NCBI RefSeq assembly: GCF_900109575.1
Contig: NZ_FOAF01000009.1
Location: forward strand, 62,001-126,000
Reading direction: 5' to 3'
DNA length: 64,000 bases
Origin: Olivibacter domesticus
Lineage (GTDB): Bacteria > Bacteroidota > Bacteroidia > Sphingobacteriales > Sphingobacteriaceae
A program made the translations under genes and the position numbers. Below, one piece after another: positions 5,657 through 19,418 of the stretch. The notes below the pieces were generated by a model that saw only the letters and a list, made by a program, of their open reading frames with translations, was not told the DNA's origin and made no database searches. The stretch's first letter is position 1; each line of letters starts with the position of its first letter.

Positions 5657-5849
5657 TTATGGTATTCTGATACCTGCTTTATTTATTTTAGTTGAAACTA
5701 GATTTAGTTTGCACAGGATAAAAATACTAAAACAAACGGTCTTTTGCTGAAGCATATAGTTCATAGGGCGGATACGCAAAAGGACAGGAAAGCGATGAGG
5801 AATCCATTATGCCCATGGTTTTGCTCCGAATAATACTTAATTTCGTGAT

Positions 5850-6470
5850 ATGAGTAACCTTAATCCACATTCGCCGTTTTGGGAGCTATTGCCGCTTAAA
5901 GGCTTGGGGCCGATACGGTTTTTGACCAATAAATCGACGATGCAGGCATATCACGGTGAACTCGGTTCGATCACGGCCGAAAGAAACGAAAATTTGGAGC
6001 AGCAGCAACAGGAACTGTATGATACCTTTAATCAGTTCAGCGAATTCTTCAGTCAAGACGATTTAAATAATGTGCTTGAAGCAATGCAGGTTGTCGGAGA
6101 TAGTCGGGATGATATTTCGACGGTGTTCATGGACTCTGGAATATCGCTGGAATATAAAGCCGATCAATTGGTGGAGGTTTTCGCTGATGACAGGGCGAAA
6201 CAGTTGCATTTTCAGGGTATGCCGATTTTTTCTACCGATCCAAAACAATTGGTTATGTACATCAGCAAGCAATTAAATGAAACCCCTTTTATCAAGAGTG
6301 AAGAAATTGCTTTCCCCGTGCACAACCTTTTTTTGTTTTCATTCTTGAGTGAGCAAGCAGGTGGTGCATACCACGACGGGGAAAAGAAGAGTAGAACCGT
6401 TAGCTGGTGGAATACAGCGCGGCCTTACGGTGAGGATTTATCTGCTTATCGTCCCTTAGAACTGATTTGA
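5850..6470 (+). CDS. Hypothetical protein, 206 aa
   Basis: I do not recognise this family. The protein is soluble with no signal peptide. It opens MSNLNPHSPFWELLPLKGLG and has a Gln/Glu-rich stretch (residues 45-60, NENLEQQQQELYDTF) likely to be helical. It contains several acidic segments (SQDDLNNVLEAM; VEVFADDRAK) and ends in a Trp-rich stretch (VSWWNTARPYGEDL). Composition and frame quality look like a genuine gene. Its position, directly beside toxin-antitoxin debris, makes an immunity-like or accessory role possible, but nothing in the sequence proves it. Confidence 0.6.
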   Translation: MSNLNPHSPFWELLPLKGLGPIRFLTNKSTMQAYHGELGSITAERNENLEQQQQELYDTFNQFSEFFSQDDLNNVLEAMQVVGDSRDDISTVFMDSGISLEYKADQLVEVFADDRAKQLHFQGMPIFSTDPKQLVMYISKQLNETPFIKSEEIAFPVHNLFLFSFLSEQAGGAYHDGEKKSRTVSWWNTARPYGEDLSAYRPLELI

Positions 6471-6508
6471 GATGGAGCCTTCGGTGTAAGAAAAGATGAG
6501 CATCTGCA

Positions 6509-6554
6509 AAAAAACATGAGTTCAATCCCTTTGAATGGTTGAAATACACCAAGC
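6509..6554 (+). pseudogene. Possible IS66-type transposase tail
   Basis: A short frame reads HEFNPFEWLKYTKLP, which resembles the NP-[FY]-EWLK-[DY] segment near the C-terminus of IS66-family transposases. It runs straight into the broken zeta-toxin start on the opposite strand, and may mark the insertion or deletion that truncated that toxin. It is only about 15 residues long, so this is tentative. Confidence 0.25.
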
Positions 6555-6591
6555 TTCCGTTTGAACCTGCTATGATATATAGGTTAGGCAC
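6552..6591 (-). pseudogene. Zeta-toxin-like gene, truncated after 12 codons (copy 1)
   Basis: It starts with a GTG that overlaps the stop of the upstream 83-aa gene (TAGTG). It reads MPNLYIIAGSNG, the first strand and first half of the P-loop seen in zeta-toxin/P-loop kinase genes (MPxLYIIAGxNGAGKS). Homology stops before GKS; the sequence beyond (reading MSLVYFN..) is unrelated and opposite-strand debris takes over. It is therefore a dead toxin gene next to an apparently intact partner. Confidence 0.55.
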
Positions 6592-6842
6592 TAAAATAGG
6601 TTTAATTCATTGCGAATTGCTTCTTCTTGCACTTTTGTCAATTCGCGAACGATAGTGAAAGATTTTAAGTTAGGTGAAACCATTACAACCTTAATAGAAT
6701 GATCTGGGTATTCCAGATAACTCTGGTCTTTAGGCAATTTGTTAGACCATATCAAAAAAGGCTTTCCTTGCTCAAGTTTTTGCCTTCTTAATTTTCTTAC
6801 AACAGAATTACCAACTGTTTTTAATTCTTCAATGGTTCCCAT
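6591..6842 (-). CDS. Small protein, probable antitoxin partner of a lost zeta-like toxin
   Basis: An 83-aa protein, MGTIEELKTVGNSVVRKLRR.., with a basic N-terminal helix, a central WSNKLPKDQSYLEYPD stretch and a helical, acidic C-terminus ending EEAIRNELNLF. Its stop overlaps a GTG start of a P-loop toxin-like frame (TAGTG), the classic coupled arrangement of an antitoxin followed by its toxin. The toxin has been lost after 12 codons. The same C-terminus (..IRDELDLF) followed by the same overlap occurs again at 7556-7670, which supports calling this a family with that partner. The function is inferred from context only. Confidence 0.6.
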   Translation of the reverse strand: MGTIEELKTVGNSVVRKLRRQKLEQGKPFLIWSNKLPKDQSYLEYPDHSIKVVMVSPNLKSFTIVRELTKVQEEAIRNELNLF

Positions 6843-6888
6843 TTTGTTTTATTTTTTGCCTAAAACAAAGGTTGATTATTGAACGATA

Positions 6889-7392
6889 CTATAGCGAACT
6901 TGCTTTCTTCTCTGGTGCGTCACCTACGAATGCCTCTATAAAACGGCCTTCTTCCCTGCTGTCTTCAAACACGATTTTCACCAATTGCACGCCGTTGGAG
7001 TCGGCGGAAATGCCAGTAGCGGTGATGGTTAACCTCACTTCTTGCTCTGGTTGGAGCAGGTAGTTCAGGTAGTTTTGCTTGTCCTCAAAACGTACCAGCA
7101 CCCTGCCCATGGAAATTGTTGAAATATAATAGCTATTGCGCTTGCTGTCTACAACCTGCGTACCAAATACATTCAGCCTGAGTTCTCGAGGCACTTCTTT
7201 TTTGTTTAGCAAGGTGAGCGTGGCCTTTGCGGTGTTCGTGGTGGCGTCTAATTGATAATCTATAGCATTGAATTGAATATCATCTACGACGGCGGAACTA
7301 TCAGGTGGTGAAACAGCTAGTTGGGCTGCTTTGCCTGCCGATAGCCCAATGAACAATAAACTGCAAGCCAGTATAAAGGACAGATTCTTCAT
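6889..7392 (-). CDS. Exported hypothetical protein
   Basis: A 167-aa protein with a clear Sec signal peptide (MKNLSFILACSLLFIGLSAG, cleavage near KAA-QL). The mature part is a predicted beta-sandwich-like domain: alternating strands such as TAKATLTLLNKKEVPRELRL, YYISTISMGRVLVRF and EVRLTITATGI. The C-terminus is short and charged. I do not recognise a named family. It is flanked by toxin-antitoxin debris on both sides but is itself intact. It is probably periplasmic or surface-located; the role is unknown. Confidence 0.65.
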   Translation of the reverse strand: MKNLSFILACSLLFIGLSAGKAAQLAVSPPDSSAVVDDIQFNAIDYQLDATTNTAKATLTLLNKKEVPRELRLNVFGTQVVDSKRNSYYISTISMGRVLVRFEDKQNYLNYLLQPEQEVRLTITATGISADSNGVQLVKIVFEDSREEGRFIEAFVGDAPEKKASSL

Positions 7393-7555
7393 GGTGCGAT
7401 GGCTATATGTTAATTTTTGAAACGTATGATTGCTGTATTTTGCTTTTAGTTGTCATGCTATAGATCAAATTTAGTTAATTTATTTGATAAGCTATTAGGA
7501 TGAGCTAACTCGACTAAAAAACGAATACGTCATTTTACTCTAGGTAGATATTCAA

Positions 7556-7683
7556 GCCCAACACCAGATTTTCCAGCTCCTTTTGAGCCAGTGACGATAT
7601 ATAGGCTAGGCACTAGAATAAGTCTAATTCATCGCGAATTTTATTTTGCATTTCGCGATTTGCAAAATGCAAAATACATGTAC
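7556..7683 (-). pseudogene. Second antitoxin-tail/zeta-toxin-head remnant (copy 2)
   Basis: Reading the minus strand, a frame ends ANREMQNKIRDELDLF-stop, matching the C-terminus of the 83-aa gene at 6591-6842. Its TAG overlaps a GTG that starts MPSLYIVTGSKGAGKSGVGL and continues EYLPRVK-stop. This copy keeps the full Walker A motif (GSKGAGKS) but stops after about 27 codons. It is therefore a second, independently truncated copy of the same antitoxin-toxin junction, about 1 kb from the first. Confidence 0.6.
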
Positions 7684-7921
7684 GGATAGATGAGTAGAAC
7701 TGGAAATAAAGAATTATTAAGATGGCAGACCTTGAACTAATAGGCACAGATTGAAGGGATATATCCAAAAAAATTAAGGCCGTCTATACGGGGTTCTTTT
7801 CTGAATGTGTAAGGTTATAGCGTGTTAACGATTGGAAGAAGTTATCCATTTCTTTTGTTTGGTGATTTCGGTACGACTACGAATCTTTGCTTTGCGGAAG
7901 TTAAAACTTATTTTTGTTTAA
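7684..7921. other. Intergenic stretch without recognisable gene
   Basis: About 240 bp between the zeta-like remnant and the HNH remnant. No frame longer than about 25 codons has sensible composition and no clear hairpin was noticed. Probably decayed sequence. Confidence 0.4.
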
Positions 7922-8075
7922 ATGATGCAGCAGTTTCCTACCAGCAATAATCTACCCATTCATCAGCTGGCCGCCTGTTTTAACAATACATCGGCTACTT
8001 ATAAATTCTATTGGCTTTATTAGACGAGATCCAGAACGGGCATTAAGCCGTTAACAAATAACCCTATATGCTATT
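7922..8075 (+). pseudogene. HNH endonuclease, 5' fragment (frameshifted)
   Basis: It reads MMQQFPTSNNLPIHQLAACF, then NNTSATYKFYWLY-stop. The segment (..LA..FNNTSATYKFYW.LALLDEIQNG..) is typical of the N-terminus of a family of HNH-endonuclease-domain proteins in Bacteroidota; in the next frame the sequence continues LLDEIQNGH. The matching C-terminal half (HMERFIPYSFVSHDQIWNLIP) is found at 9810-10067 on the same strand, on the far side of the Fic gene. Together they look like one gene split and partly deleted. Confidence 0.5.
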
Positions 8076-8135
8076 TCGGAAATTAGAGCAACATCCTCTG
8101 TTACCACTGCCCCATATCGCCCCTATTGTAAATCG

Positions 8136-8312
8136 TTAGCAAAAAGCAATTTAAAGATTGCATTAAAAATTGCAATACCTCCTTTGAACAGAAAAAGTCC
8201 ATACGATCCGGATTTCGTCAAGGAAATTCTCGATGGCCGGGAAGATGTCAAAAATGCAAAGGAGTTAAACTGGATTAAACTAAAGTCAAGGCCGGGACAC
8301 AAGAGTGATTAA
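8136..8312 (+). pseudogene. Small antitoxin-like protein remnant (DUF2683-like)
   Basis: A frame without a good start codon reads LKIALKIAIPPLNRKSPYDP, DFVKEILDGREDVKNAKELN and ends PGHKSD. The pattern LKIAIP..KSPYDP.FV..I is typical of short antitoxin-like proteins that precede a RelE-like toxin. No toxin follows: the next gene (Fic) is on the other strand, 3 bp away. It is probably a remnant, or could use an unusual start. Low to moderate confidence. Confidence 0.4.
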
Positions 8313-8315
8313 GTA

Positions 8316-9680
8316 TCAATTCCAATTACTTTTCCAATATTTAAATTCTGAAGGCGATATCCGATAACGCGCAAAATTACCTTCATGCAAAGCTAAAATC
8401 TCCGTTTCAATTGCCTCGATAAATTTGTTGCGATCATTTTCTGGGATTTTTTCCGCCTCCTTTTTTACAAAAAGCACTGTCCCTTCTTTTCCTATTCCAT
8501 TACGAACAATGTTGGAAATAATAACTCTCATCTCTTCTCGATATTTTAAGCGAAATGGGTCAGGTTCTCCCAGCGACTGTTTAATGGCAGCATAGCGCAT
8601 TGCGGATCGCTCATACGCCCACATGAAAACATCTTTGAATAATTCAATTCTATTCAATTCATAGATGCCGAGCATTCCTTTGACATAATATTCTTCCGGT
8701 ACATCGACAAAGGATAGTGGAGCAAGGTTGTTGCTGTTTAATGGGATGTTTGCAGCTAAACGCGAAACCCGCTTATTTACGTCATCAAACGGCTGAAGGT
8801 AAGGCAAATGTATTAAGACAAATAATGACTGTTCAAACGGATTTTTAATCTGCCTTGCCTTTTCTAAAATTAAATCAAAAAATTCAGAAATGAGTTGGGG
8901 TATTGCCAAAGGGGTGAATACCGAATTTGTTATACCAACACCAAACTCCCTTAATCTACCTGAAGCTGCGGGGTTGGACAGCAGGTTATTGGAAAGCAGG
9001 GCATGAAGATTTAAAATGGTATAGCGATTGAAACTCACATCATCTGCTCCCTCAACTAAAAACTCAATCGCATCCTTGTGATTCAATATCATTTGGGTTT
9101 CTTTAGCAGACTTATTCTCGGCAGGTCTGCCACCATGGATCAATATCTCGGTATCCAGCAGCGAATAGGTATTGCCCTCTAAGCGACTGGAATTCCACGA
9201 TAGATCAATTAATAGTCTACCAAGTATATGCTTTGCATAAGTTCCCGCTGCTTGTGCATCTCCCTGTGTTTTTCCGATCAGTGCCAGATGTTCTTTTTCT
9301 GCGTTTGTCAGGTAACTATCCAAATTAGGACGGTAGTTGGCTAAAAATTCCGTTTGATACCCAACTGGCTTTCTTTTTGTCTCAGATCGTGTAACTAGGG
9401 CTAAAACATCTTTTCCTTCAATAGATAACGGAATATCATCTTGTGGTTTTGAGGAACGGTCTTCATCGTGTATTTGTAACTCGGTAATCGTGGGAAAGTA
9501 CTTGGTTGATCTCGAGCCTCCAGTGATCATTACCCGATGATCGTCCGCTAACTTTTTTAATCGTCGTTGCAATGTCCGCCTTTCAATTTGAAAGGGGAGC
9601 CTGGCCATTAACTGATCGATGGATAGCCCATTTTCGTCTAATGATTGTACGATTATGTTTAGTTGTTCCGTTTCACTCAT
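8316..9680 (-). CDS. Fic-domain protein with winged-helix N-terminus and degenerate Fic motif
   Basis: A 454-aa protein. Residues about 1-65 form a winged-helix DNA-binding domain (RRTLQRRLKKL; ITGGSRSTKYF beta-wing). An inhibitory-helix motif SSRLEGN lies at 164-170, followed by the Fic core. The canonical HPFxDGNGRxxR is replaced by QPFDDVNKRVSR (296-307): the catalytic His is Gln, and both Gly of DGNGR are changed. Classical AMP transfer is thus unlikely. The upstream region has a cluster of TTCGCGACA boxes including a perfect inverted repeat, which fits autoregulation by the winged helix. It appears inserted within an HNH nuclease gene. Confidence 0.85.
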   Translation of the reverse strand: MSETEQLNIIVQSLDENGLSIDQLMARLPFQIERRTLQRRLKKLADDHRVMITGGSRSTKYFPTITELQIHDEDRSSKPQDDIPLSIEGKDVLALVTRSETKRKPVGYQTEFLANYRPNLDSYLTNAEKEHLALIGKTQGDAQAAGTYAKHILGRLLIDLSWNSSRLEGNTYSLLDTEILIHGGRPAENKSAKETQMILNHKDAIEFLVEGADDVSFNRYTILNLHALLSNNLLSNPAASGRLREFGVGITNSVFTPLAIPQLISEFFDLILEKARQIKNPFEQSLFVLIHLPYLQPFDDVNKRVSRLAANIPLNSNNLAPLSFVDVPEEYYVKGMLGIYELNRIELFKDVFMWAYERSAMRYAAIKQSLGEPDPFRLKYREEMRVIISNIVRNGIGKEGTVLFVKKEAEKIPENDRNKFIEAIETEILALHEGNFARYRISPSEFKYWKSNWN

Positions 9681-9686
9681 AAAGTA

Positions 9687-9776
9687 TTCGCGACAGTTTT
9701 ACGACAATGATAGTTGTTTTCTGTCGCAAAACAAATTTTCGCGACATAAATTTGTCGCGAATAACATTTCGCGACA
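9687..9776 (-). promoter_or_regulatory. Operator cluster upstream of the Fic gene (TTCGCGACA boxes)
   Basis: The 9-mer TTCGCGACA occurs at 9687-9695, 9738-9746 and 9768-9776, and inverted (TGTCGCGAA) at 9753-9761. The copies 9738-9746 and 9753-9761 form a perfect inverted repeat with a 6-nt spacer. A partial copy (TGTCGCAA) lies at 9722-9729. All lie within 100 bp of the Fic start codon, where a repressor would act. The binding protein is presumably the Fic protein itself; that is inference. Confidence 0.7.
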
Positions 9777-9809
9777 ACAAGCGAACGCTATCTCGTTTTC
9801 CGGAAATTT

Positions 9810-10067
9810 GTATGTCCGGCTAATTCAAAATATAGGACAGTATCATATGGAGCGCTTTATACCCTACAGCTTTGTTTCGCATGATCAGATATGGAACTTG
9901 ATTCCATCAAACAATAGCTTCAACATTAGTAAAAGCAATAAGCCCCAAGCCTAGCCAGAAAAAATCAAACGAGAAACTTTTGGAAGATTATTTTTATATT
10001 GGCACGGATTGGAGAGAAGGGCTATCAAAAGATAATTTTTTTGATGTGATCAATCCTTTTTTTGTGT
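9810..10067 (+). pseudogene. HNH endonuclease, 3' fragment (frameshifted)
   Basis: One frame reads HMERFIPYSFVSHDQIWNLI then PSNNSFNISKSNK. This is the HNH core of the family whose normal form is H[VM]ERFIPWSFV..DQLWNL.P....NSSKS..LP. The frame then shifts and continues LEDYFYIGTDWREGLSKDNF up to a stop at 10067. The N-terminal half lies at 7922-8075. Missing middle and frameshifts make it non-functional. Confidence 0.55.
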
Positions 10068-10073
10068 AGAATT

Positions 10074-11156
10074 TTATTCGTTCCAAAGCGGATAATCAAT
10101 GTAACCATGTTTTCCGCCCCCATACATTGTTGCTCTATCCAGCTCACTAAGCGTGGCATTTTTCTCAAACCGTTCATGCAGGTCGGGGTTTGCGATGTAT
10201 AGCTTGCCAAAAGAAATAAGCTTTGCAATGCCTTTTTCAAGTTCTGCTTCGGCAGAAGCCTTGTCATACCCTGCATTAGCAATAACTGTCTGGCGGATCT
10301 TCCTGCCAAACAATTCAATCTCGTCGTGAGCGGCACCATGTTCAGGCGAAGTGAAATTGGGGCTGCGCCTCATGATTTCCACATAGGCAAAGGCCATTTC
10401 ATTCAATTTTTCGATCAGGTGGGTATAGGTAGCGATAGGGTCGTCCAGTACCATATCACCATAGAAATGGAAAGGAGATATTTTAATACCCACCTTTTCA
10501 CTACCCACCACACGGATCAATTCCTGCATCACCTCCACTACAAAGCGGACCTTGTTAGGAATGCTGCCGCCATAATCATCCGTCCTTTGGTTGGCACTTT
10601 CAGCTAAGAACTGGTTGGGCAGATATCCATTGGCAGCGTGAAGGGCAACCCCGTCAAACCCTGCCGCTATGGCATTTTTTGCGGCCTGGCCATAGTCCTT
10701 TATAGTCTGCTTGATTTCGGGAATCGTCATTTCCTGAGGTATCTCGTAATCCTTCCTGCCCTGAGAGGTAAAATGCTGCATCCCGCGGATAGGCAAGGGT
10801 GATGGCCCAAAAGGGAGCTTGCCGCTCCTGTCTACAGAATGCCCCATGCGGCCGGTATGCCAAAGCTGGGCTATAATAATACCGCCTTTATTGTGTACCG
10901 CCGTTGTAACCTTCTTCCATGCTTCTATTTGTTGACCCGTGAAAATACCCGGAGTGAGCGGACTGCCGGTAGCCTCTTCACTGATCCTGATGGCTTCGCT
11001 AAAAAGCAAACCTGCGCCAGCCCTTTGGGAATAATACGCTATTGTCATATCACCCACTAAGCCATTTACGTCTGTACGACCTCTGGTCATCGCTGCCATG
11101 GCCATGCTGTTTTTTAGGCTGACACCGCCTAATTGTGTTTTTTCTAAAAGTTTCAT
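10074..11156 (-). CDS. Old Yellow Enzyme family alkene reductase (NADH:flavin oxidoreductase)
   Basis: A 360-aa FMN-dependent TIM-barrel enzyme of the OYE/NemA type, reducing activated C=C bonds or nitro-compounds with NAD(P)H. Visible motifs: N-terminal LGGVSLKNSMAMAAMTRGRT, AQLWHTGRM (active-site His region), GFDGVALHAANGYLPNQFL, NQRTDDYGGS and, near the end, SFGKLYIANPDLHERF. It is the last gene of the minus-strand unit that begins at the cobalamin riboswitch, 10 bp after the SBF transporter gene, so the two are surely cotranscribed. A link to the oxygen-dependent MesX/MesD chemistry (as a source of reduced flavin) is possible but only inferred. Confidence 0.9.
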   Translation of the reverse strand: MKLLEKTQLGGVSLKNSMAMAAMTRGRTDVNGLVGDMTIAYYSQRAGAGLLFSEAIRISEEATGSPLTPGIFTGQQIEAWKKVTTAVHNKGGIIIAQLWHTGRMGHSVDRSGKLPFGPSPLPIRGMQHFTSQGRKDYEIPQEMTIPEIKQTIKDYGQAAKNAIAAGFDGVALHAANGYLPNQFLAESANQRTDDYGGSIPNKVRFVVEVMQELIRVVGSEKVGIKISPFHFYGDMVLDDPIATYTHLIEKLNEMAFAYVEIMRRSPNFTSPEHGAAHDEIELFGRKIRQTVIANAGYDKASAEAELEKGIAKLISFGKLYIANPDLHERFEKNATLSELDRATMYGGGKHGYIDYPLWNE

Positions 11157-11166
11157 CCGTAAATAA

Positions 11167-12192
11167 TTATTCGTTAATGTTTTTCTCTTGTCGTCTAGCC
11201 ATACCCTGGGCGATGATGCTGGCGGCGATCAATTGCAAGGCATGGTAAAGCATGAGTGGCAACAATACGATGCCCGTAATGGTACTGTGCTGAAAAAGCA
11301 CTTTTGACATGACCGTGCCGTGTACCAATGACTTCTTAGATCCACAAAATAAGACCGTAATACGATCTTCGTCTGAAAAGCCAAACAAGCGGCTGAGTAG
11401 TCCAACGCAAAAGAATACAACAAAAAACAAGGCCATCATCCCTGCGGCGAGTACGGCAAGTTCAAGGGTGGTGAATCCTTCAAAAAGATGTTCGGAGAAT
11501 GACTTACAAAACGACGTGTAAATGATGGTGAGGATAACTGCCTGATCGAAATGTTTGAGTTGTTTTTTATACTTTTCGGCAATGGCGCCAAAACGGGAGT
11601 GGAGGCTGATGCCGATAATGACAGGTAGCAAGACTTGAAGAATCAACTTGATGACGATATGCGTGATATCAAAATCGCCTGTTGCAGAAGCGATGAACAG
11701 CCCAACCCAGAGCGGCGTAACCACTACGCCGATCAAACTGGAAATGCTGGCATTGAAAATGGCTGCAGGAATGTTGCCCTTGGCGATGGAAACCATGACC
11801 ACGGAAGAGGAAACGGTGGACGGTAAAGCTGACAGAAAAAACACACCCAACCAAAGCAACTCAAAGTCAGTGCCAGTGAACAAAGGGCGAGATGCCAAAA
11901 CGATGAGCGGAAAAAACAAAAAGGTTGTCAACTGCACAACTAGGTGCATTTTCCAGTTGGCAAGCCCTGCTTTTAGTTTCTCAACACTCAGTCGCATTCC
12001 ATAAAACAGGAAAATCAACGACACACCTGCATTAGCAATCTCTTCTAGCGAAACAGGTTCTTTGACCATGCCTGGCTGCGGCAAAAAATAGGCTAGCAGA
12101 ATCATGGTGCCTATCAGTAACAGGAAACTATCGAAACCTGCTTTACTTAATACTTCTAATAACTTCTTCAATATGATCTTACAATATGCCAA
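11167..12192 (-). CDS. SBF-like sodium/bile-acid-type transporter
   Basis: An integral membrane protein of about 340 aa with some ten hydrophobic segments. It belongs to the bile acid:sodium symporter superfamily (SBF-like). Characteristic stretches include VSLIFLFYGMRLSVEKL, LSALPSTVSSSVVMVSIAKG, NASISSLIGVVVTPLWVGLF and FCGSKKSLVHGTVMSKVLF; the SALPSTVSSS and GSKKSLVHG segments are typical of the bacterial branch. The substrate is unknown. The start is unclear: a TTG at 12192 opens the frame and another TTG at 12171 would give the N-terminus LKKLLEVLSKAGFDSF. It is cotranscribed with mesD upstream (81-bp gap) and the OYE gene downstream (10 bp). It may import a compound used by the methionine synthase module. 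Confidence 0.82.
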   Translation of the reverse strand: MAYCKIILKKLLEVLSKAGFDSFLLLIGTMILLAYFLPQPGMVKEPVSLEEIANAGVSLIFLFYGMRLSVEKLKAGLANWKMHLVVQLTTFLFFPLIVLASRPLFTGTDFELLWLGVFFLSALPSTVSSSVVMVSIAKGNIPAAIFNASISSLIGVVVTPLWVGLFIASATGDFDITHIVIKLILQVLLPVIIGISLHSRFGAIAEKYKKQLKHFDQAVILTIIYTSFCKSFSEHLFEGFTTLELAVLAAGMMALFFVVFFCVGLLSRLFGFSDEDRITVLFCGSKKSLVHGTVMSKVLFQHSTITGIVLLPLMLYHALQLIAASIIAQGMARRQEKNINE

Positions 12193-12273
12193 TTTATAAT
12201 TTTGGAAGCCAATTGCCTGATTAGGGAGTTTTTCTTGAAACTACAATCCAGAGAGGCGTCCTATATATGGGGA

Positions 12274-13302
12274 CTAGATCGCAAATTCTTTCCGTATGAT
12301 CTCTGCTCCAGCGCTTAAAGCACTTAACTTACCTCTCGCTACGTTTCGGGATAAAGGAGCCATACCGCAATTCGTACTAGGGTAAAGATCTTTGATATCA
12401 ACAAATTCAAGCGTTTTACGCAGGGTATCAGCTACCTCTTCGGGTGTTTCTATCGTGTTAGATGCCACATCAATTGCACCAACCATTACTTTCTTCCCAC
12501 GAACCAGTTCAATTAAATTTAAAGGCACATTTGAGTTGTGGCATTCTAACGACACGATATCAATAGTAGAAGTTTGAATTTTAGGAAAAATTTCTTCGTA
12601 TTGACGCCAGGCTGATCCCAATGTCTTTTTCCAATCATTATTAGCTTTTATTCCATAACCGTAGCAAACATGTACTGCAGTTTCGCAGTGTAACCCTTCA
12701 ATGGCTCTTTCTAATGCTGCCATTCCCCAATCGTTTACTTCATCAAAAAAAACATTAAATGCAGGTTCATCAAATTGGATAATATCAACCCCTGCATCTT
12801 GCAATTCTCTTGCTTCCTCATTGAGTACTTTCGCAAATTCCCACGCCAGTTTTTCTCTGCTTTTGTAATGGGCATCGTACAAGGTATCAACCATCGTCAT
12901 CGGACCTGGCAATGCCCATTTTATAGGTTTATCTGTCTGTTCACGTAAAAATTTAGCGTCTTCAACGAAAACTGCTTTTTGACGTGTAACCTCACCTACA
13001 ACGATAGGAACACTCGCATCGTAACGGTCACGGATCTTTACGATCTTACGATTTTCAAAATCTACACCACTTAAATGCTCAATAAAAGTGGTTACGAAAT
13101 GTTGGCGGGTTTGCTCACCATCACTAATGATATCCACCCCTGCCAATTGCTGTTCTTGCAAAGAAATACGCAAAGCATCTTGTTTCCCTTCCAATAACTG
13201 ATCGCCGTCTAACTTCCAGGGTGACCATAATTTTTCAGGTGGTGCAAGCCAGGCAGGTTTGGGCAAACTTCCCACAATTGAGGTGGGCAATAATTTTTTC
13301 AT
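12274..13302 (-). CDS. mesD: Core-MetE folate-independent methionine synthase, MesD type
   Basis: A 342-aa protein equivalent to the C-terminal catalytic barrel of MetE only, without the N-terminal folate-binding half. The zinc and homocysteine site is complete: H211 and C213 (VHVCYGYG), E253 (SLECHNSN) and C312 (STNCGMAP). The N-terminus VGSLPKPAWL and the segment GVDIISDGEQTR are typical of the family. It is paired with a DUF1852 gene (mesX) 28 bp upstream, the arrangement described for the MesD/MesX oxygen-dependent, folate-independent methionine synthases. The unit starts at a cobalamin riboswitch, so expression is expected when B12 is scarce. The methyl donor of MesD enzymes is not established. 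Confidence 0.88.
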   Translation of the reverse strand: MKKLLPTSIVGSLPKPAWLAPPEKLWSPWKLDGDQLLEGKQDALRISLQEQQLAGVDIISDGEQTRQHFVTTFIEHLSGVDFENRKIVKIRDRYDASVPIVVGEVTRQKAVFVEDAKFLREQTDKPIKWALPGPMTMVDTLYDAHYKSREKLAWEFAKVLNEEARELQDAGVDIIQFDEPAFNVFFDEVNDWGMAALERAIEGLHCETAVHVCYGYGIKANNDWKKTLGSAWRQYEEIFPKIQTSTIDIVSLECHNSNVPLNLIELVRGKKVMVGAIDVASNTIETPEEVADTLRKTLEFVDIKDLYPSTNCGMAPLSRNVARGKLSALSAGAEIIRKEFAI

Positions 13303-13330
13303 AATAAAATAAATTTAAGGTGTTGTGTAA

Positions 13331-14329
13331 TTAAAGAGAGAAGTTGACAGACCACTGTTCTAAAACACTTTTGTAAGGCTTAATGAAATGCTCGTCTGCA
13401 AATTTGCCTTGCTCGATCGCTAACTGGCTGCGCTCTTCCCGGTTGTATACAATTTTTGTTAAAGAATGGTCCTGATTTTTCAAACTAGGCTTATAGCATA
13501 CTCCTGCAACAGAATTGGCGTTATAAATTTCAGGTCTATAGATCTTTTGGAACGTTTCCATTGTACTAATGGTACTGATCAATTCCAGGTTTGTATAATC
13601 AGCCAGTAAGTCGCCAAAGAAATAAAAGGCCAAAGGCGCAACGCTATTAGGTGGCATAAAATAGCGAACCTGCAAGCCCATTTTTTTGAAGTATTGTTCT
13701 GTTAAAGAAGATTCGCTGGGTTGGTATTCAAAACCTACTATCGGGTGATGGTTTCCTGTACGATGATATGTTTTATTCTCTGCTACACTCAAACAAATAA
13801 CAGGTGGTTTAATAAAGCGTTTTTTGTAAGTTTCTGAATTTACAAAATGCTTAAATATATTGCCGTGTAACTCACCAAAGTTATCAGGAATGCTAAATTT
13901 ATCTTTACCCTTGTTATGCTCTAAAAGCAAGACGCTAAAATCATAATCACGTACGTAAGAAGAAAAGTTATTTCCAACAATACCTTCCAGGCGTTCGCCA
14001 GTTTTATGATCAATAATATGCGTTTTTAAGATCTCAATCGAGGGGAATGTTGTACCACTACCATCGATATCTATATCAACAGAAACAATCTCTAATTCAA
14101 CCGAATAGCGATCGTTCGTTGGATTATCCCAGTTTGCCAGGGTGTTAAAACGATTGTTGATCATATTAATGGTGTTGCGCAAGTTTTCCTGACGACTTGT
14201 TCCTCTTGCCAAGTTAGCAAAGTTAGTAGTGGTGCGCGTACTATTGGACGGTATATAGTTCTCATTGAAATAAATACTCTTTAGTGTGAACACAAAATCA
14301 TTCTTGATGGCATGCTGGATATTTTCCAT
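13331..14329 (-). CDS. mesX: DUF1852 protein, MesD partner
   Basis: A DUF1852-family protein, about 332 aa from the ATG at 14329; the open frame extends upstream to a TTG at 14389, but family members begin at ..DFVFTLKSIYFNENYIPSNS, so the ATG is preferred. Hallmarks are TRTTTNFANLARG, SRQENLRNTINMINNRFN and NWDNPTNDRY. DUF1852 (MesX) is the obligate partner of MesD in folate-independent methionine synthesis and acts with it in an oxygen-dependent manner. Its own chemistry is not known, and no classical cofactor motif is visible. It lies 28 bp upstream of mesD and directly downstream of the metE remnant. Confidence 0.88.
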   Translation of the reverse strand: MENIQHAIKNDFVFTLKSIYFNENYIPSNSTRTTTNFANLARGTSRQENLRNTINMINNRFNTLANWDNPTNDRYSVELEIVSVDIDIDGSGTTFPSIEILKTHIIDHKTGERLEGIVGNNFSSYVRDYDFSVLLLEHNKGKDKFSIPDNFGELHGNIFKHFVNSETYKKRFIKPPVICLSVAENKTYHRTGNHHPIVGFEYQPSESSLTEQYFKKMGLQVRYFMPPNSVAPLAFYFFGDLLADYTNLELISTISTMETFQKIYRPEIYNANSVAGVCYKPSLKNQDHSLTKIVYNREERSQLAIEQGKFADEHFIKPYKSVLEQWSVNFSL

Positions 14330-14408
14330 GTATTTCTTTTTGTTTGTTATCGGATCTTCTGTTATGATCGCTTTTATTAATTGTTGCAATTATTTCCTCG
14401 GTACTTGC

Positions 14409-14534
14409 TTAGCTGATCTTCTCCCGTGCTTCTTTAGCAGCAGCCACCATGTTGATCAAAGCGGCTTTAGCTTCCGGCCAGTTACGGGTTTTTAGACCGC
14501 AATCCGGGTTTACCCAAAGATTTTGCGTGAGCAT
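14409..14534 (-). pseudogene. metE 3'-end remnant (41 codons)
   Basis: The frame reads [20 protein letters not shown] then [21 protein letters not shown] and stops. This is the extreme C-terminus of full-length cobalamin-independent methionine synthase, including NPDCGLKTR with the zinc-ligand Cys. Nothing of the remaining ~720 residues is present upstream; only ~170 bp separate it from the cobalamin riboswitch. It is best explained as what is left of a B12-regulated metE after deletion, now located between the riboswitch and mesX. Whether the 41-codon frame is still translated is unknown. Confidence 0.8.
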
Positions 14535-14622
14535 GTTTTTAACTTTTAAATATTAATGATCATTATAAAAAGTTCTTGGTTATTCCTGACACGACAGGCG
14601 AAGAAGGGTTATAGAGGCGTTT

Positions 14623-14709
14623 TTATATACGAACAGGCGCAACCAAGCCATGAGGGCCGGCACCTTTAAACTGTACAATCTGACCAATGACCTCTTTACG
14701 CGGAAGCAT
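14623..14709 (-). other. Short frame after the riboswitch
   Basis: A 28-codon frame begins just after the B12 box and reads MLPRKEVIGQIVQFKGAGPH then GLVAPVRI. It could be a leader peptide, the residue of the original gene start, or chance. No family was recognised. It is listed because it lies between a riboswitch and its target genes. Confidence 0.25.
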
Positions 14710-14714
14710 CGTCA

Positions 14715-14890
14715 ATTCAGTAAAGGCAGGTATCCTGACTTGTAACGGCTTTTACCAGCCTTCCCGCTTGCGCAGTGACCATGATTGGTAAAGCCTTTGT
14801 GTTACTTACAGTTGCGCGACAGCTCGTGATTTGCACACGATTCCCTATTAATTCACCGTTAAGTAAAACCTTTTCTGATTGCTGAAACAA
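14715..14890 (-). promoter_or_regulatory. Cobalamin riboswitch
   Basis: Read on the minus strand, the region shows the conserved blocks of the AdoCbl riboswitch in order: GGTTTTACTTAACGGTGAA, then ATAGGGAATCGTGTGCAA, GAGCTGTCGCGCAACTGTAA, GCGGGAAGGCTGGTAAAAGC, and finally the B12 box AGTCAGGATACCTGCC (complement of 14725-14740). Order and spacing fit the class. It lies at the 5' end of the metE-remnant/mesX/mesD/SBF/OYE unit and should reduce its expression when B12 is available. A metE gene would be its natural target, and a metE tail indeed follows. Confidence 0.92.
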
Positions 14891-15051
14891 ACAAAGAACC
14901 AATAGTTTTAAACTCTGGTCAAAGTTACAAAAACAGCAATTAAAGCTAAACTAAGGATGTAATTTTAGCTAAAATTACTTTTAATTGATTTTTTATTGAA
15001 TTTTTATGCTGTTTACTTATATTTTTGTATGCTACAACAGTGATTTATGCT

Positions 15052-15513
15052 ATGGAACAATTGGATGAGATCGATCTGAAACTATTAAAAATATTAGGCA
15101 ATGATTCAAGTCATACCATCAAGGAACTCGCAGCGAAAGTAAATTTGACGCCTTCGCCGGTGGTGCAACGCGTGAAACGCCTAGAAACAAGTGGGTATAT
15201 TAAAAAGTATATTGCATTATTAGACCCGCAAAAGTTCAACCAAGGTTTTATCGTTTTTTGCAATATCAAGCTGAAACAGCATGACCGAAATATCGGACGT
15301 AGTTTCGTACAGGATATCCTAAAGATCGACGAGGTAGTGGAATGTTATAATATCTCCGGTGATTACGATTTCTTTCTGAAAGTGTTTGCCCGGGACATGA
15401 AGCACTACCAGGATTTTGTGTTCAATAAATTAGGTTCGGTAGAAAGCATTGGCAGCGCGCACAGTACCTTCGTGATGGACGAGATCAAAAACACGCACAA
15501 TATCAGTTTTTAG
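15052..15513 (+). CDS. Lrp/AsnC-family transcriptional regulator
   Basis: About 153 aa from the ATG at 15052 (MEQLDEIDLKLLKILGND), the usual start of the family; the frame is open a further nine codons upstream. An N-terminal winged helix (TIKELAAKVNLTPSPVVQRVKRLE) and a C-terminal RAM/ligand-sensing domain (GDYDFFLKVFARDMKHYQDF) are clear. Such proteins respond to amino acids and control amino-acid metabolism genes. It is divergent from the riboswitch-led methionine synthase unit, with about 150 bp between them, so control of that unit or of methionine-related genes is plausible but unproven. Confidence 0.9.
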   Translation: MEQLDEIDLKLLKILGNDSSHTIKELAAKVNLTPSPVVQRVKRLETSGYIKKYIALLDPQKFNQGFIVFCNIKLKQHDRNIGRSFVQDILKIDEVVECYNISGDYDFFLKVFARDMKHYQDFVFNKLGSVESIGSAHSTFVMDEIKNTHNISF

Positions 15514-15670
15514 TACTAATCTTTTAATTAAATCGTAAATCGCATGAATTACGGGTAATACCGTCATCGCTCTGATAAATGATGATATCTCTTATAGCTA
15601 CGGAATAGATCAAACCACCCTATTTTTATAATGAAAAAGTTGTTTTCAATAGATCTGTTTATATTCAATA

Positions 15671-15886
15671 TTAACTTGTATGGCAATGAGGGCAGCAGTA
15701 TGCACAGCCATTGATTCTAGCTCCGGGGTATTGTCTTTTAGCTTCTAAAACTGCCGGTTCACAAGTATAGTATCCACCTAACTTTTTAAGATTTGTTGAA
15801 TTTTTGATCCAGTAGCAATCTCCATGATGAACCTCATAGTTGCCATTTGTCTGTTGATTTCCATTTAAGTAATAGGTACGATACAT
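15671..15886 (-). CDS. Small Cys-rich protein, 71 aa
   Basis: The 71-aa product has the C-terminal half CEPAVLEAKRQYPGARINGC followed by AYCCPHCHTS. Six Cys are visible (one in HHGDCYW, one in YYTCEP, then GCAYCCPHC). The pattern EVH..GCywi....n..LG.y..C..AV..Ak......inGC.yCc..CHTS recalls short Bacteroidota proteins of unknown function that may bind a metal. The frame is clean with a sensible composition. Function unknown. Confidence 0.6.
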   Translation of the reverse strand: MYRTYYLNGNQQTNGNYEVHHGDCYWIKNSTNLKKLGGYYTCEPAVLEAKRQYPGARINGCAYCCPHCHTS

Positions 15887-15918
15887 ACTACAGTCTCAAT
15901 TTAAATAGTTTTATAAAA

Positions 15919-15973
15919 GGTAACGCTTACCTAACTCACGCAATGAATGCGCAATCTTTTAGCAAGCGTTACC
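15919..15973. repeat. Nested inverted repeat
   Basis: GGTAACGCTT (15919-15928) and AAGCGTTACC (15964-15973) form a perfect 10-bp inverted repeat. Inside lies a second small hairpin (CGCA-ATGAA-TGCG, about 15939-15951). It is not followed by a T-run on either side, so it is not a standard terminator. It could be a site-specific element or an RNA structure. It stands alone in a ~270-bp gene-free stretch. Confidence 0.5.
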
Positions 15974-16157
15974 TAGCACGGTGCCACGAAAAACAACCTT
16001 TTCTTCACAGAAATTTAAAAATAGGTTTAGGTTGTAATCATCCCATGTGTTAATATTTGAAGTAATTTCGGCACAAAAAAAAATATCCCAAAATTTATTA
16101 CATGAATAGGCTTATTAGATAGATGAATAGAAAGATGGGATACACCAATTGCTTTTT

Positions 16158-16508
16158 TTATTCTATCTTACGGATAAGCGATTTACCTTCCTTGATCTTG
16201 ATAGCAATGACCTCCTCCTGCAAAGCTTTCTCAGGAAAATCAATAGTAGCAGCAATATCGTGACCTGCTTGATTGAGCAGCTTGAAACCAATGGGTTTGG
16301 TATACACCCAACCAAGTGCTTTATAAAGGTCTTCGTGCATTTTTACAGAGGTAAGAAAACTTCTATATGCTTCTAAATAAGCAGCTACTTCTCTTCGTGC
16401 CTTAATGGTTCTGACATGTTTTTCAACGATCGCAAAACGTCCGTACAGCCGGCTTTCTTCTGCTATTTCGATATACGTATATCGTTTTCTCCATTTAAAG
16501 AGGGGCAT
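16158..16508 (-). CDS. Hypothetical protein, 116 aa
   Basis: A 116-aa soluble protein, MPLFKWRKRYTYIEIAEESR.., Lys/Arg-rich at the N-terminus. The middle (IKARREVAAYLEAYRSFLTS) is helical. The end (DFPEKALQEEVIAIKIKEGK) would form strands and a basic tail. No family was recognised. A near-perfect palindrome, TGCGATG-G-CATCGCA (16524-16538), lies 16 bp before the start and could be an operator or a 5'-leader hairpin. Confidence 0.55.
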   Translation of the reverse strand: MPLFKWRKRYTYIEIAEESRLYGRFAIVEKHVRTIKARREVAAYLEAYRSFLTSVKMHEDLYKALGWVYTKPIGFKLLNQAGHDIAATIDFPEKALQEEVIAIKIKEGKSLIRKIE

Positions 16509-16560
16509 ATGTGGGTTGATTAATGCGATGGCATCGCAATAAAGAAATAGTATTTAACTT

Positions 16561-16586
16561 ATTGGGCCTAAAGATTTAGACCCAAT
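16561..16586 (-). terminator. Probable terminator of the 45-aa peptide gene
   Basis: ATTGGG-C-CTAAA (16561-16572) pairs with TTTAG-A-CCCAAT (16575-16586). It starts 11 bp beyond the stop codon of the small minus-strand gene. The following minus-strand sequence is A/T-rich but lacks a strong T-run, so termination efficiency is uncertain. Confidence 0.5.
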
Positions 16587-16597
16587 AGCTGTGTGTC

Positions 16598-16735
16598 TTA
16601 CCTTGTTTTTAGCAGACCGGTCATTGTAACTGTTTGAGAAGTATCTGCCTCGGATACTGTTTTTAGTGTGCTTGCTTTTCTGAACTTTAATAAGTTCTTT
16701 GAAGAAACTGTAATGTTGAATACCTGACGTTTCAT
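16598..16735 (-). CDS. 45-aa peptide gene
   Basis: The frame encodes MKRQVFNITVSSKNLLKFRK, then ASTLKTVSEADTSQTVTMTG and LLKTR. Composition is normal: a basic N-terminal half and a Ser/Thr-rich C-terminal half without Cys. A hairpin lies right after the stop, and the start is divergent from the LytS-type kinase gene 79 bp away. It resembles a short secreted or modified peptide precursor with a leader-like N-terminus and a Thr/Ser-rich core, but no maturation enzyme is seen nearby. It may equally be a small regulatory protein. Real gene status is moderately likely. Confidence 0.45.
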   Translation of the reverse strand: MKRQVFNITVSSKNLLKFRKASTLKTVSEADTSQTVTMTGLLKTR

Positions 16736-16813
16736 ATTTTTTTTTGGTTAATTTGCTACGCCAGTTATTTTTTTGGAAATTTAGTACATCAACACAAATA
16801 TTAGATAGACGAG

Positions 16814-17896
16814 ATGGCCCTTACGATAGATTTACAAAATAAGAAAATGCTACCCTGGCATCTTTTGGGTTGGTTTGTTCTAATTGCTTATGAAATTACT
16901 TTTTTGATGGCTTTAGAGGCTCCGAGAACACCTCTTGGTCTGTTTCTTTCTTACAGCCTCTGCATCATGCTGTTTTACATCCACGCTTATGTGATAATGC
17001 CGATTAAAAACCGCTATTGGCTTATTCTGCTCATACCTTTGGAGATTTTTGTTTTCTATCTAATTGAAATGAGCTTTGAACACATCAAGCTCTTTGTGGC
17101 AGATACGTATAAACTAACTCCTGTTAAAACGCTTCTTATACAATACACGTATAGAGGTATTTACTTTGTTAGTTTCGCTACGGTATATTGGCTTTTTATG
17201 AATGCGCTACAAAGCCGCGACCGCCTCTTGAAATTAGAAAAACAACGTATTGTTGATGAACGTTTACAAACGGATCTAGAAATGAAACTGGTGAGATCAC
17301 AAAATGCAAAACTTCGTTCACAAATTGAGCCGCATTTTATATTTAATACCATGAACTTCATCTACGACTCGGTAGAGAGTGTTTCTGAAAAGGCTGGCGA
17401 AACAATCTTACTGCTTTCGGAAATGATGCATTATGCGTTGCAAAAAACGGATGATGATTATGAAGTGCCTTTACAAGTGGAATTAGAAAATATACGGAAC
17501 CTAATCAGGATTAATAACATAAGAACCAATAATAGGCTGCATGTTAAACTGGAAACAGACCTTGATAGCGAAGACGAAGACCTATTAAAAACGCTCCCGC
17601 TTTTATTTATTACCTTTGCGGAGAACATGTATAAGCACGGCGATTTAACGAACGAACAAACACCGGGAATTATCTATGTTTCTGCTAAGAAGGGTGAACT
17701 ACTCTTTACCACTTGGAACAAGAAACGCCCACATAAAGCAATTGATGGCAACTCAATGGGAATTGCCAATGCCAAGGAAAGGCTACAGAATTTTTATAAT
17801 AAGAAACAGTTTAGCTTATCTATTAATGACAATGCCGAGGGGTATTCGGTTGAACTGAAGATTGAATATGCGTATGACAAGTTGTTATATAATTGA
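16814..17896 (+). CDS. LytS/YehU-type sensor histidine kinase
   Basis: A 360-aa membrane kinase. Four hydrophobic segments lie in the first ~140 residues (VLIAYEITFLMAL; FLSYSLCIMLFYIHAYVI; LILLIPLEIFVFYLI; IYFVSFATVYWLFM). A short coiled coil follows, then the His_kinase domain with the H-box QIEPHFIFNTMNFIYDSVE (His about 178) and an N-box-like FAENMYKHGDL. The ATPase G-boxes are short (NSMGIANAKERL), typical of this family. Its 3' end overlaps the LytTR regulator gene, forming a kinase-regulator pair that also includes the following arr-like gene. Confidence 0.9.
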   Translation: MALTIDLQNKKMLPWHLLGWFVLIAYEITFLMALEAPRTPLGLFLSYSLCIMLFYIHAYVIMPIKNRYWLILLIPLEIFVFYLIEMSFEHIKLFVADTYKLTPVKTLLIQYTYRGIYFVSFATVYWLFMNALQSRDRLLKLEKQRIVDERLQTDLEMKLVRSQNAKLRSQIEPHFIFNTMNFIYDSVESVSEKAGETILLLSEMMHYALQKTDDDYEVPLQVELENIRNLIRINNIRTNNRLHVKLETDLDSEDEDLLKTLPLLFITFAENMYKHGDLTNEQTPGIIYVSAKKGELLFTTWNKKRPHKAIDGNSMGIANAKERLQNFYNKKQFSLSINDNAEGYSVELKIEYAYDKLLYN

Positions 17897-18605
17897 TGAT
17901 GAAGAGGCTTCGATTAGTCTGTTAAGCAAATTCATCACCAAAACTCCAGATTTGAACCTTGTGGGCAGTTCTTTAAACCCCTTGGAGGCACTGCAGAAAT
18001 TTCAAAATAGCAGTATACAGGTAGATATCACGTTTCTGGACATCAATATGCCTGAAATATCGGGTTTAGAACTCGCCAACTTAATTGGTAAATCCACCCA
18101 TATTATCTTTACCACTGCACATACACAGTATGGTTTAGAGGCTTTTGACAGAGATGCTATTGATTACATTGCAAAGCCCTTTAGCTATGAACGCTTCTTA
18201 AAAGCAGTTAGCCGTTACCATAAACACTGGCATAATGCGCAACAACAGTCGCCAAAAAAGGAACATTTCTTTTTTATAAAAAATGACACCAAAGGAAAGC
18301 TTACGCGGATTGTAATAGATGAAATTATTCGCATCGAATCTATGGCGAACTACATCATGATCCACACTACTTCGGGGAAACATATTACTTATCTCACGTT
18401 GACCGAAGCCGAAGACTACTTGGCCCCGTATGGATTTGTCAGAATACACAAATCATCCGTTGTTAACCCTAAACATATTAAAGGGGTAGATGGTAATCAA
18501 GTTAAGCTAATTGACGGCTCAACGATTATTGCTGGGGTGAGTTACAGGAAATTGCTAACGGAAGAAATTGCCAAGAATTTACTGGTTTCTAAAAGACGAA
18601 ATTGA
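17874..18605 (+). CDS. LytTR-family response regulator
   Basis: About 243 aa from the ATG at 17874 (MTSCYIIDDEEASISLLSKF); the frame is open four more codons upstream. The receiver domain has acidic pocket IDDEE, phospho-acceptor Asp in ITFLDINMPEISG and Lys in YIAKPF. A C-terminal LytTR DNA-binding domain follows (RIVIDEIIRIESMANYIMIH; FVRIHKSSVVNPKHIKGVDG). It overlaps the kinase gene by 23 bp and abuts the ADP-ribosyltransferase gene, so all three form one operon. Confidence 0.92.
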   Translation: MTSCYIIDDEEASISLLSKFITKTPDLNLVGSSLNPLEALQKFQNSSIQVDITFLDINMPEISGLELANLIGKSTHIIFTTAHTQYGLEAFDRDAIDYIAKPFSYERFLKAVSRYHKHWHNAQQQSPKKEHFFFIKNDTKGKLTRIVIDEIIRIESMANYIMIHTTSGKHITYLTLTEAEDYLAPYGFVRIHKSSVVNPKHIKGVDGNQVKLIDGSTIIAGVSYRKLLTEEIAKNLLVSKRRN

Positions 18606-18619
18606 TAATAAACCGCAAT

Positions 18620-19363
18620 ATGGAATTTTCACCATTCAACAATGTTGTTAAATACTGCCTTCAAGGTATGGATATGGAAGAAAAAGGCGAATCTGAAGAA
18701 GCAGGTAAACTCTTTCTGCAAGGTTGGGACGAGGCGACAAGTGCCTTTGAGAAATTTCTTGCCGCGCATTATGTAGCCCGGCATCAGAAAACAGTATCAG
18801 ACCAATTAAAATGGCTCGAAACAGCTTTGGAGTATGCTTTAAAAATAAATGATGATTCTGTTAAGAGTGCTTTCCCTGCTCTTTATTTAAACATTGCCAA
18901 ATGCTACGAAACGTTAGGCGACATAGAAAAGTCAAGGAAGCATGCTAACTTGGCTACCTTATTTAAGGACAACCCGTCTGACAAAGGTCCTTTTTATCAT
19001 GGCACGAAAGCGGATTTGCAGGTTGGCGATTTATTGACAGCAGGCGGCAATTCAAACTACCAATCAGACCTCAAAATGAATCATATTTATTTTACCGCGA
19101 TGGTGAATGGAGCAGGGCTTGCTGCTGCATTAGCGAAGGGTGATGAACGTGAACGTGTATATATCGTTGAACCAACTGGAAATTTTGAAAATGACCCAAA
19201 TGTTACGGACAAAAAATTCCCAGGCAATCCTACCCGTTCATATCGTAGCCAAGAACCATTAAAAATAGTTGGCGAAGTAACAGAATGGATTGGACCAACG
19301 CCTGAGAACCTTCAGAAATTCCGTGAAAAACTAGCGAACAATAAAGGAGAAATAATAAATTAA
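18620..19363 (+). CDS. arr: Rifampin ADP-ribosyltransferase (Arr) with an N-terminal helical domain
   Basis: The C-terminal half (about residues 118-247) is a full Arr domain: YHGTKADLQVGDLLTAGG, MNHIYFTAMVNGAGLAAALA, VYIVEPTGNFENDPNVTDKK and FPGNPTRSYRSQEPLKIVGE. The NAD-binding His (YHGT) and Tyr (HIYFT) are present. Arr inactivates rifamycins by ADP-ribosylating a hydroxyl. Classical Arr is about 140 aa; here about 110 extra residues precede it, made of TPR-like helices (WLETALEYALKIND; PALYLNIAKCYETLGDIEKS). Cotranscription with a LytS/LytTR pair suggests signal-dependent expression. The ATG at 18620 is preferred over a TTG at 18602. Confidence 0.88.
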   Translation: MEFSPFNNVVKYCLQGMDMEEKGESEEAGKLFLQGWDEATSAFEKFLAAHYVARHQKTVSDQLKWLETALEYALKINDDSVKSAFPALYLNIAKCYETLGDIEKSRKHANLATLFKDNPSDKGPFYHGTKADLQVGDLLTAGGNSNYQSDLKMNHIYFTAMVNGAGLAAALAKGDERERVYIVEPTGNFENDPNVTDKKFPGNPTRSYRSQEPLKIVGEVTEWIGPTPENLQKFREKLANNKGEIIN

Positions 19364-19383
19364 GTAATGTATTTCAGAAAAAT

Positions 19384-19409
19384 CCGCTCGCCTTGTGCTA
19401 GGCGAGCGG
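19384..19409. terminator. Bidirectional terminator between arr and the GH32 gene
   Basis: CCGCTCGCC (19384-19392) and GGCGAGCGG (19401-19409) are perfect inverted arms with an 8-nt loop. The hairpin sits between two convergent genes, with an A-rich flank on the left giving a T-run for the leftward gene. It is a strong intrinsic terminator. Confidence 0.85.
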
Positions 19410-19418
19410 AGATTATAT

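Follow-up and report, generated by a model that had tools for sequence, protein, structure and literature searches.

A cobalamin (B12) riboswitch that probably once controlled metE now heads the gene pair mesX-mesD in Olivibacter domesticus, within the 64,000-nt stretch analysed here (the window; contig NZ_FOAF01000009.1, 62,001–126,000; all coordinates below are window positions). Along the minus strand from 14927 to 10074 stand a promoter element, the cobalamin riboswitch, a metE scar, mesX, mesD, an SBF-like transporter gene and a gene of the Old Yellow Enzyme (OYE) family. MesD/MesX has been described as a folate-independent methionine synthase, and oxygen-dependent methionine synthesis without methyl-folate or cobalamin has been shown for other members of the system (Price et al., 2021; PMC7857596). 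The locus would be a case in which a regulatory RNA has outlived its gene and passed to another enzyme that performs the same task, the deletion scars being still legible. It predicts that MesX-MesD serves as a B12-repressed backup in Mucilaginibacter and relatives, and provides a simple handle (with and without B12, with and without oxygen) on an enzyme pair whose methyl donor the finding itself does not identify. The arrangement is a variation on known kinds, cobalamin riboswitches and MesXD both being known, and no new kind of system.

The aptamer (14708–14888, minus strand) matches RF00174 over the full model (1–189), scoring 99.5 bits where the gathering score is 31.5 (E 1.1e-23), the sole Rfam match above gathering score in the whole window, so that the cobalamin riboswitch placed ahead of the cassette by a first-pass annotation of this DNA stands. 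In 19 leaders compared, the first hairpin (14680–14715, minus strand), directly 3' of the aptamer, has 98.0% of its cells paired, with one pair A-U in 15 leaders and G-C in four; its loop contains CCGCG, a candidate partner of the aptamer loop by analogy with other cobalamin riboswitches. The second hairpin (14635–14665, minus strand) is less regular, its outer six pairs being 86.6% paired, and two pairs are changed on both sides. Upstream of the riboswitch lies TAACTTTG (14920–14927), the only minus-strand match from 15025 to 14326 to TAnnTTTG, the Bacteroidota -7 promoter element. It could be aligned across 16 leaders, 15 of which fit TAnnTTTG, while L133 reads TACCTTTA. In the interval between riboswitch and mesX, a minus-strand consensus scan found no terminator-like or sigma-70-like site and a motif scan no TAnnTTTG element; a terminator or promoter isolating mesX, which the first-pass annotation had named as the sign that it was mistaken, was not found by these scans. 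The consensus scan also gave a weak promoter-like site in the mesX-mesD interval (13329–13301), promoter-like sites in the region numbering 8 where chance would give 11.5. Between the promoter element and a divergent gene for an Lrp/AsnC-type regulator (15025–15513, plus strand; PF01037 E 1.3e-21), and a short way upstream of the former, sits a perfect 20-bp palindrome (14959–14978, no strand), read from the sequence and a candidate Lrp operator. Akin palindromes, mostly imperfect, were seen by eye at the same place in the aligned leaders, and they possibly form a second layer of control.

The pair downstream was correctly recognized as mesX-mesD. The product of mesX (DUF1852, a putative oxygenase; 13331–14329, minus strand) matches PF08908 with 599.7 bits (E 1.5e-180), and that of mesD (the folate-independent core methionine synthase; 12274–13302, minus strand), 342 aa in length, reaches 673.6 bits against NF006589 (cut-off 392) and E 1e-36 against PF01717, with just 20.3 bits against PF08267, below the cut-off of 27. 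NF006589 is taken here as the MesD family from the adjoining MesX, which is our own reading. The two genes are separated by 28 nt. The mesX start most likely lies at 14329, a position common to the relatives; the TTG at 14389 given in the open reading frame (ORF) listing is disfavoured on the same comparison.

Between riboswitch and mesX lies a 41-codon ORF (14409–14534, minus strand) that is not a chance frame, since it matches models of the MetE end (TIGR01371 718–754 of 754, E 2.2e-15; PF01717 292–323 of 324). The N-terminal and catalytic domains of MetE were not found together in one frame at the locus, which holds these 41 codons only. The first-pass annotation had read them as the last 41 codons of metE. 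The likeness to the MetE end is borne out, but the ORF probably arose by internal deletion, with the first six or so and roughly the last 35 codons retained, because its first six codons are those that open the metE remnant of a relative's locus, L136, in the same leader and with one silent difference. The remnant in L136 joins approximately the first 86 codons of metE to approximately the last 10–12, and MetE starts of congeners (MLFTNNLGYPRIG, MLLTNNLGYPRIG, MLRTNNLGYPRIG) resemble the start of the scar. Similar sequence at both deletion ends may have mediated the loss of metE. None of the 30 metE loci and four congeners compared could be identified as the source of the scarred metE; the twelve best metE matches among them are 68–76% identical to the window tail and 62–71% to the L136 N-terminus.

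The riboswitch-mesX arrangement recurs in the family. Among 399 genomes of the family, that of the window included, 23 were found to have an intact mesX and one a fragment; two genus sets of 145 and 149 genomes, which share some members with the 399, added four mesX loci, for a total of 27 intact loci, the window and 26 relatives. The intact set includes G376, a genome with 9% contamination and a MesX that falls close to those of proteobacteria. Genome G280, in which the mesX-like fragment is below the cut-off, was not counted; the fragment (L139) is short, scores 21.4 bits with one stop and may be due to chance, and a full-length metE stands there behind a cobalamin riboswitch. In 19 of the 27 loci mesX is preceded by a cobalamin riboswitch, that of L037 being degenerate (38.7 bits), and eight have none at mesX (L026, L030, L129, L130, L131, L132, L137 and L170), L030 carrying a cobalamin riboswitch downstream of the cassette. 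Neither the window nor any of the 26 relatives has an intact metE beside mesX; pieces of metE occur in two loci. By eye, several types of junction can be distinguished: those of the window and of L136; loss of metE with the mesX leader kept (L028 and L134); fusion about 14 nt before the mesX start (ten loci: L029, L031, L033, L034, L035, L135, L138, L171, L172 and L173); and fusion of the riboswitch leader at the mesX start codon (L032 and L036); the junctions of L027, L133 and L037 are too diverged for classing. Some of these types could be further erosion of one deletion. In a wider set of 80 mesX loci, a covariance-model scan that covered 22 found no cobalamin riboswitch at mesX in 11 loci (eight Flavobacteriaceae, two proteobacteria and Sphingobacterium L038) or in a further 11 proteobacterial ones. 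A rough pattern run over all 80 matched only L040, the same Mucilaginibacter locus as L027, and a cobalamin riboswitch was found elsewhere in the genome in 40 of the 42 tested.

The scar itself gives rise to the most serious alternative, which is nevertheless rather unlikely: that the riboswitch is a relic as far as mesXD is concerned, still acting on the 41-codon ORF, with mesX expression independent of it and possibly governed by the divergent Lrp. The scar ORF does occupy the start that a translation-type riboswitch would control, with mesX beginning 79 nt past its stop, and the palindrome adjoining the promoter element suggests a second regulator. Against this, the sole Bacteroidota-type promoter element found is upstream of the riboswitch, riboswitch and mesX are not separated by any terminator-like site, and 17 of the 19 riboswitch loci have no metE remains between the two. 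If control is translational, the scar ORF could have captured the controlled start, and the window is for this reason the locus in which to test the effect of the scar.

What lies between scar and mesX is informative about how the arrangement arose. The 60 nt of mesX leader in the window were compared with those of relatives at an offset of 3 nt, the relatives' stretches stopping just before the start codon and the window's at its end. The window leader resembles that of L136 (z 8.9) and those of the riboswitch-less loci L130, L132, L137 and L030 (z 5.7, 5.1, 5.0 and 4.3, equalled by 0, 0, 1 and 0 of 1000 shuffles), as well as those of the riboswitch loci L134 and L028 (z 8.4 and 5.6); L029 and L032, in which the riboswitch is fused close to mesX, are unlike it (z 1.9, reached by 42 of 1000 shuffles, and z -0.7). 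It thus appears that the window has kept the own leader of mesX (14330–14386, minus strand) between scar and gene. The scars of L136 and the window differ, yet they have the same riboswitch leader upstream and a similar mesX leader downstream, and because two different deletions of one gene occupy the same slot, they point to an ancestral riboswitch-metE-mesX-mesD operon. That such an operon never existed, and that a piece of metE instead entered an already complete riboswitch-mesX leader, is a proposition of low probability. It would account for the absence of any metE piece from 17 of the 19 loci, but L136 holds a different and larger remnant in the same slot and start-codon context, both loci keep the metE end and a mesX leader like that of riboswitch-less cassettes, and independent insertion of both ends of one gene twice at one site is improbable.

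The genes that continue the unit on the same strand were identified as first proposed: an SBF-type transporter gene (11167–12192, TTG start as listed; PF13593 E 1.9e-96) and an OYE-family oxidoreductase gene (10074–11156; PF00724 E 1.2e-70, with 278 bits against NF007899, under the cut-off of 403). Among 22 relatives with long flanks, 17 have matches to both beside mesXD, with OYE matched only in part in L130 and in separate pieces in L035, and five lack both in the mesXD neighbourhood (L027, L028, L037, L129 and L133); in L026, L131 and L132 the SBF gene is opposite to mesXD. SBF and OYE would accordingly be frequent but dispensable neighbours, and the suggestion that they supply the methyl donor or reduced flavin to MesD finds no backing in this distribution. 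An Lrp match is present in 21 of the 22 (partial in L028 and L130, several kb off in L030), which suggests that the Lrp gene travels with the cassette. These associations are the chief attraction of a further explanation, to which we attach similarly little weight as to late insertion: that the cobalamin link is secondary and the locus mainly an Lrp-controlled methionine or xenobiotic cassette in which SBF and OYE do the main work. It is countered by the five relatives that keep mesXD without either gene, and by the rescue of Escherichia coli metE and metF mutants by MesD and MesX of Sphingomonas koreensis (PMC7857596). In the riboswitch-less mesX leaders of L026, L030, L131, L132 and L137, recurring A/T-rich motifs such as AATAATTATCTGATTT were seen by eye, and these are possibly operators of the nearby Lrp.

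The remainder of the genome was searched for methionine synthases. PF01717 has three matches only, namely MesD, the window scar and, on contig C2, another metE tail, and PF08267 has none, so that no intact metE was found by these profile searches; metH is present (L176), the open frame carrying a riboswitch for S-adenosylmethionine (SAM) at the 5' end, and because the listed frame begins upstream of that riboswitch, the true metH start lies later. An intact metE elsewhere under the same riboswitch, which would have told against the original proposal, is thus not found. The tail on C2 (L003:1501–1827) belongs to the native riboswitch-metE locus, which is in synteny with that of four congeners and in which a deletion from mid-aptamer into late metE has left an aptamer remnant of 30 bits, below the gathering score, and an open frame of the end of metE. 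All four congeners have MetH and a full-length metE with a cobalamin riboswitch, and none has mesX. When they were searched with window 4000–22000, in which the cassette spans about 10.1–15.5 kb, they showed from the cassette just a 68–71% OYE-like stretch, the riboswitch core, a metE-tail piece and short pieces. Both flanks (4000–4579 and 19419–22000) match the closest congener, G063, on one contig and approximately 118 kb apart. Since the congeners hold just parts of it while both flanks match G063, the cassette was most likely acquired from outside the genus, in an accessory region; although the assembly is rated 4.17% contaminated, the 86–87% identity of the flanks to G063 argues that the contig is not a contaminant.

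The metE deleted beside mesXD would therefore not be the genus's native copy, the native riboswitch-metE having been wrecked separately. The first-pass proposal that metE was deleted and mesXD inherited its B12 control is upheld in so far as two scars indicate that metE lay there and was lost, and the riboswitch now heads mesXD; it fails as to which metE this was, and the comparison that it recommended with relatives keeping a full metE finds riboswitch-metE in all four congeners but elsewhere and without mesX. The literal scenario, in which the native metE was lost in situ and its riboswitch passed to native mesXD next to it, has the adjacency of riboswitch, scar and mesXD in its favour, but is the least probable of all, given a separate native wreck on another contig and congeners in which only cassette parts are found.

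The favoured history, as read from the scars, would run as follows. The mesX-mesD cassette would have begun with its own leader, as in the riboswitch-less relatives, and a riboswitch-metE unit would then have been gained directly upstream, giving riboswitch-metE-mesX-mesD. Internal deletion, in at least two different ways, would have removed metE and left the riboswitch ahead of mesX, and the cassette would have entered the Olivibacter domesticus genome, before or after the deletion, from outside the genus, whose own riboswitch-metE was wrecked separately. In the proposed mechanism, plentiful cobalamin would lead the riboswitch to shut the unit off while MetH makes methionine; with cobalamin scarce and oxygen present, MesX and MesD would take over without methyl-folate or cobalamin. 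Repression of mesXD by B12 is in this scheme predicted from the sequence.

Several observations weigh against this account. An intact riboswitch-metE-mesX operon was not found in the 399 family genomes or the two genus sets, and with metE pieces absent from 17 of the 19 riboswitch-mesX loci, ancestral metE is shown for two only. The window leader is unlike three of the seven riboswitch-less leaders tested (L026, L131 and L170; z 1.5, 1.4 and 1.3). The scar moves mesX about 205 nt further from the riboswitch, from where control of the translation type might no longer reach. Four of five covariation measures for the leader hairpins beat all 500 shuffles, but the number of pair types is not above them (475 of 500 reach it), and the helices were picked from a fold of the same sequences. 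Genome G165 (g16) has riboswitch-mesX without MetH, and G397 has riboswitch-mesX together with a separate metE under its own cobalamin riboswitch, so that mesXD is not always a metE replacement and the two can coexist. Finally, the Lrp, MesX and MesD trees disagree on the kin of the window, which suggests a mosaic cassette, with regulatory and coding parts probably reshuffled, and lowers confidence in the sequence of events. The nearest neighbours of the window in the MesX tree are Mucilaginibacter L027 and L133 (99/81), followed by Sphingobacterium L130, which has no riboswitch at mesX (93/89). The window's Lrp is placed among loci that carry both a riboswitch and the other type of MesX; of the 18 Lrp rows from riboswitch loci, 17 fall in one clade (100/99) and L171 lies outside it. 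The MesD tree is poorly resolved. The trees omit L038, a duplicate of L130, and alignment A1 omits L037, whose chosen range held stops. MesX sequences form two deep types, at 62–68% and 84–90% identity to that of the window and with L129 apart, and both types are found with and without a riboswitch; MesD sequences are 84–94% identical to the window's.

The distribution of the other methionine synthases accords with the proposed mechanism. A strong PF08267 match was present in 5 of 23 genomes with an intact mesX against 259 of 376 without (399 genomes; Fisher p 9e-6, kinship uncorrected), a count that omits weak or partial matches (G325, G376, G263 and G058) and takes the others on the match alone. 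MetH was found in 15 of 16 genomes with a riboswitch at mesX against 2 of 7 without (23 genomes; Fisher p 0.003, kinship confounding); both tallies leave out the four mesX genomes from the genus-set searches. The genomes with neither MetH nor a riboswitch at mesX are G136, G276, G294, G297 and G376 (g16, Sphingobacterium). Three metE loci of g16 (L145, L150 and L161) carry a SAM riboswitch and the three scanned from g14 (L143, L168 and L174) a cobalamin one. This fits a B12 riboswitch being kept where a B12-dependent enzyme can take over, subject to the same confounding by kinship.

In comparison with known systems, the leader has the aptamer family of the cobalamin riboswitch-metE leaders, seen in the four congeners, in which B12 shuts off a B12-free methionine synthase; here it would be MesX-MesD, which makes no use of methyl-folate, that is controlled, and metE is a scar only. 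Isozymes of B12-dependent enzymes are a known class of cobalamin riboswitch target (PMC3766115), into which mesXD would fit. The adjacency of mesX and mesD and the high scores of both families agree with the described MesD/MesX system; the riboswitch ahead of them does not, and the word riboswitch is absent from the accessible main text of its description (PMC7857596). In Acinetobacter baumannii, the DUF1852 gene, a mesX homologue, is under B12 repression, being strongly lowered by B12 in RNA-seq (log2 fold change -8.33 and -8.07; PMC12892962), but the word riboswitch does not occur in the accessible text of that report. The one Acinetobacter mesX locus scanned, from another species (L106), has no cobalamin riboswitch match within 6 kb, and the mechanism in A. 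baumannii may for this reason differ from riboswitch control. MesD has also been reported to be insensitive to nitrous oxide (PMC13059711). Among the matches listed in openly licensed literature, neither mesXD as a cobalamin riboswitch target nor the riboswitch-mesXD arrangement was met. An AlphaFold model of MesX (mean predicted local distance difference test score, pLDDT, 73.2; predicted template modelling score, pTM, 0.76) matched nothing in Foldseek at an E of 0.001 or below, none of 998 re-aligned chains reached a Z of 5, and the only match to PDB sequences had E 0.86; the fold searches thus do not illuminate the methyl donor, although a fold relationship may still exist.

A broader and distinctly more tentative reading joins these threads: the riboswitch leader and Lrp would constitute a transferable control module, handed over from metE to mesXD by a number of separate metE deletions and located close to riboswitch-queH in some relatives. 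The whole would be a mobile 'life without B12' island with which a cell alternates between MetH, which depends on folate, and MesXD, which needs oxygen but no folate, while SBF and OYE assist MesX. As a separate observation, a second cobalamin riboswitch near mesXD stands ahead of queH at L138:3342–4261, L031:8599–9517 and L030:10110–11132, the gene being called by PF02677 in L138 and L030 and by similarity alone in L031. Its product is a B12-free epoxyqueuosine reductase, and QueH is mentioned as a cobamide-independent alternative in PMC6461909, in the accessible text of which no link between riboswitch and queH is made.

At the far end of the unit, terminator-like hairpins after the OYE gene (9738–9777, minus strand) possibly mark its end, on a consensus scan alone that found 10 terminator-like sites in the region, where chance would give 6.1. 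The cassette is adjoined by a Fic-domain gene (PF02661; 8299–9780) that shares 96% identity with sequence from congener G063, there on another contig, and because this identity far exceeds the 86–87% of the flanks, it suggests a recent transfer of that gene.

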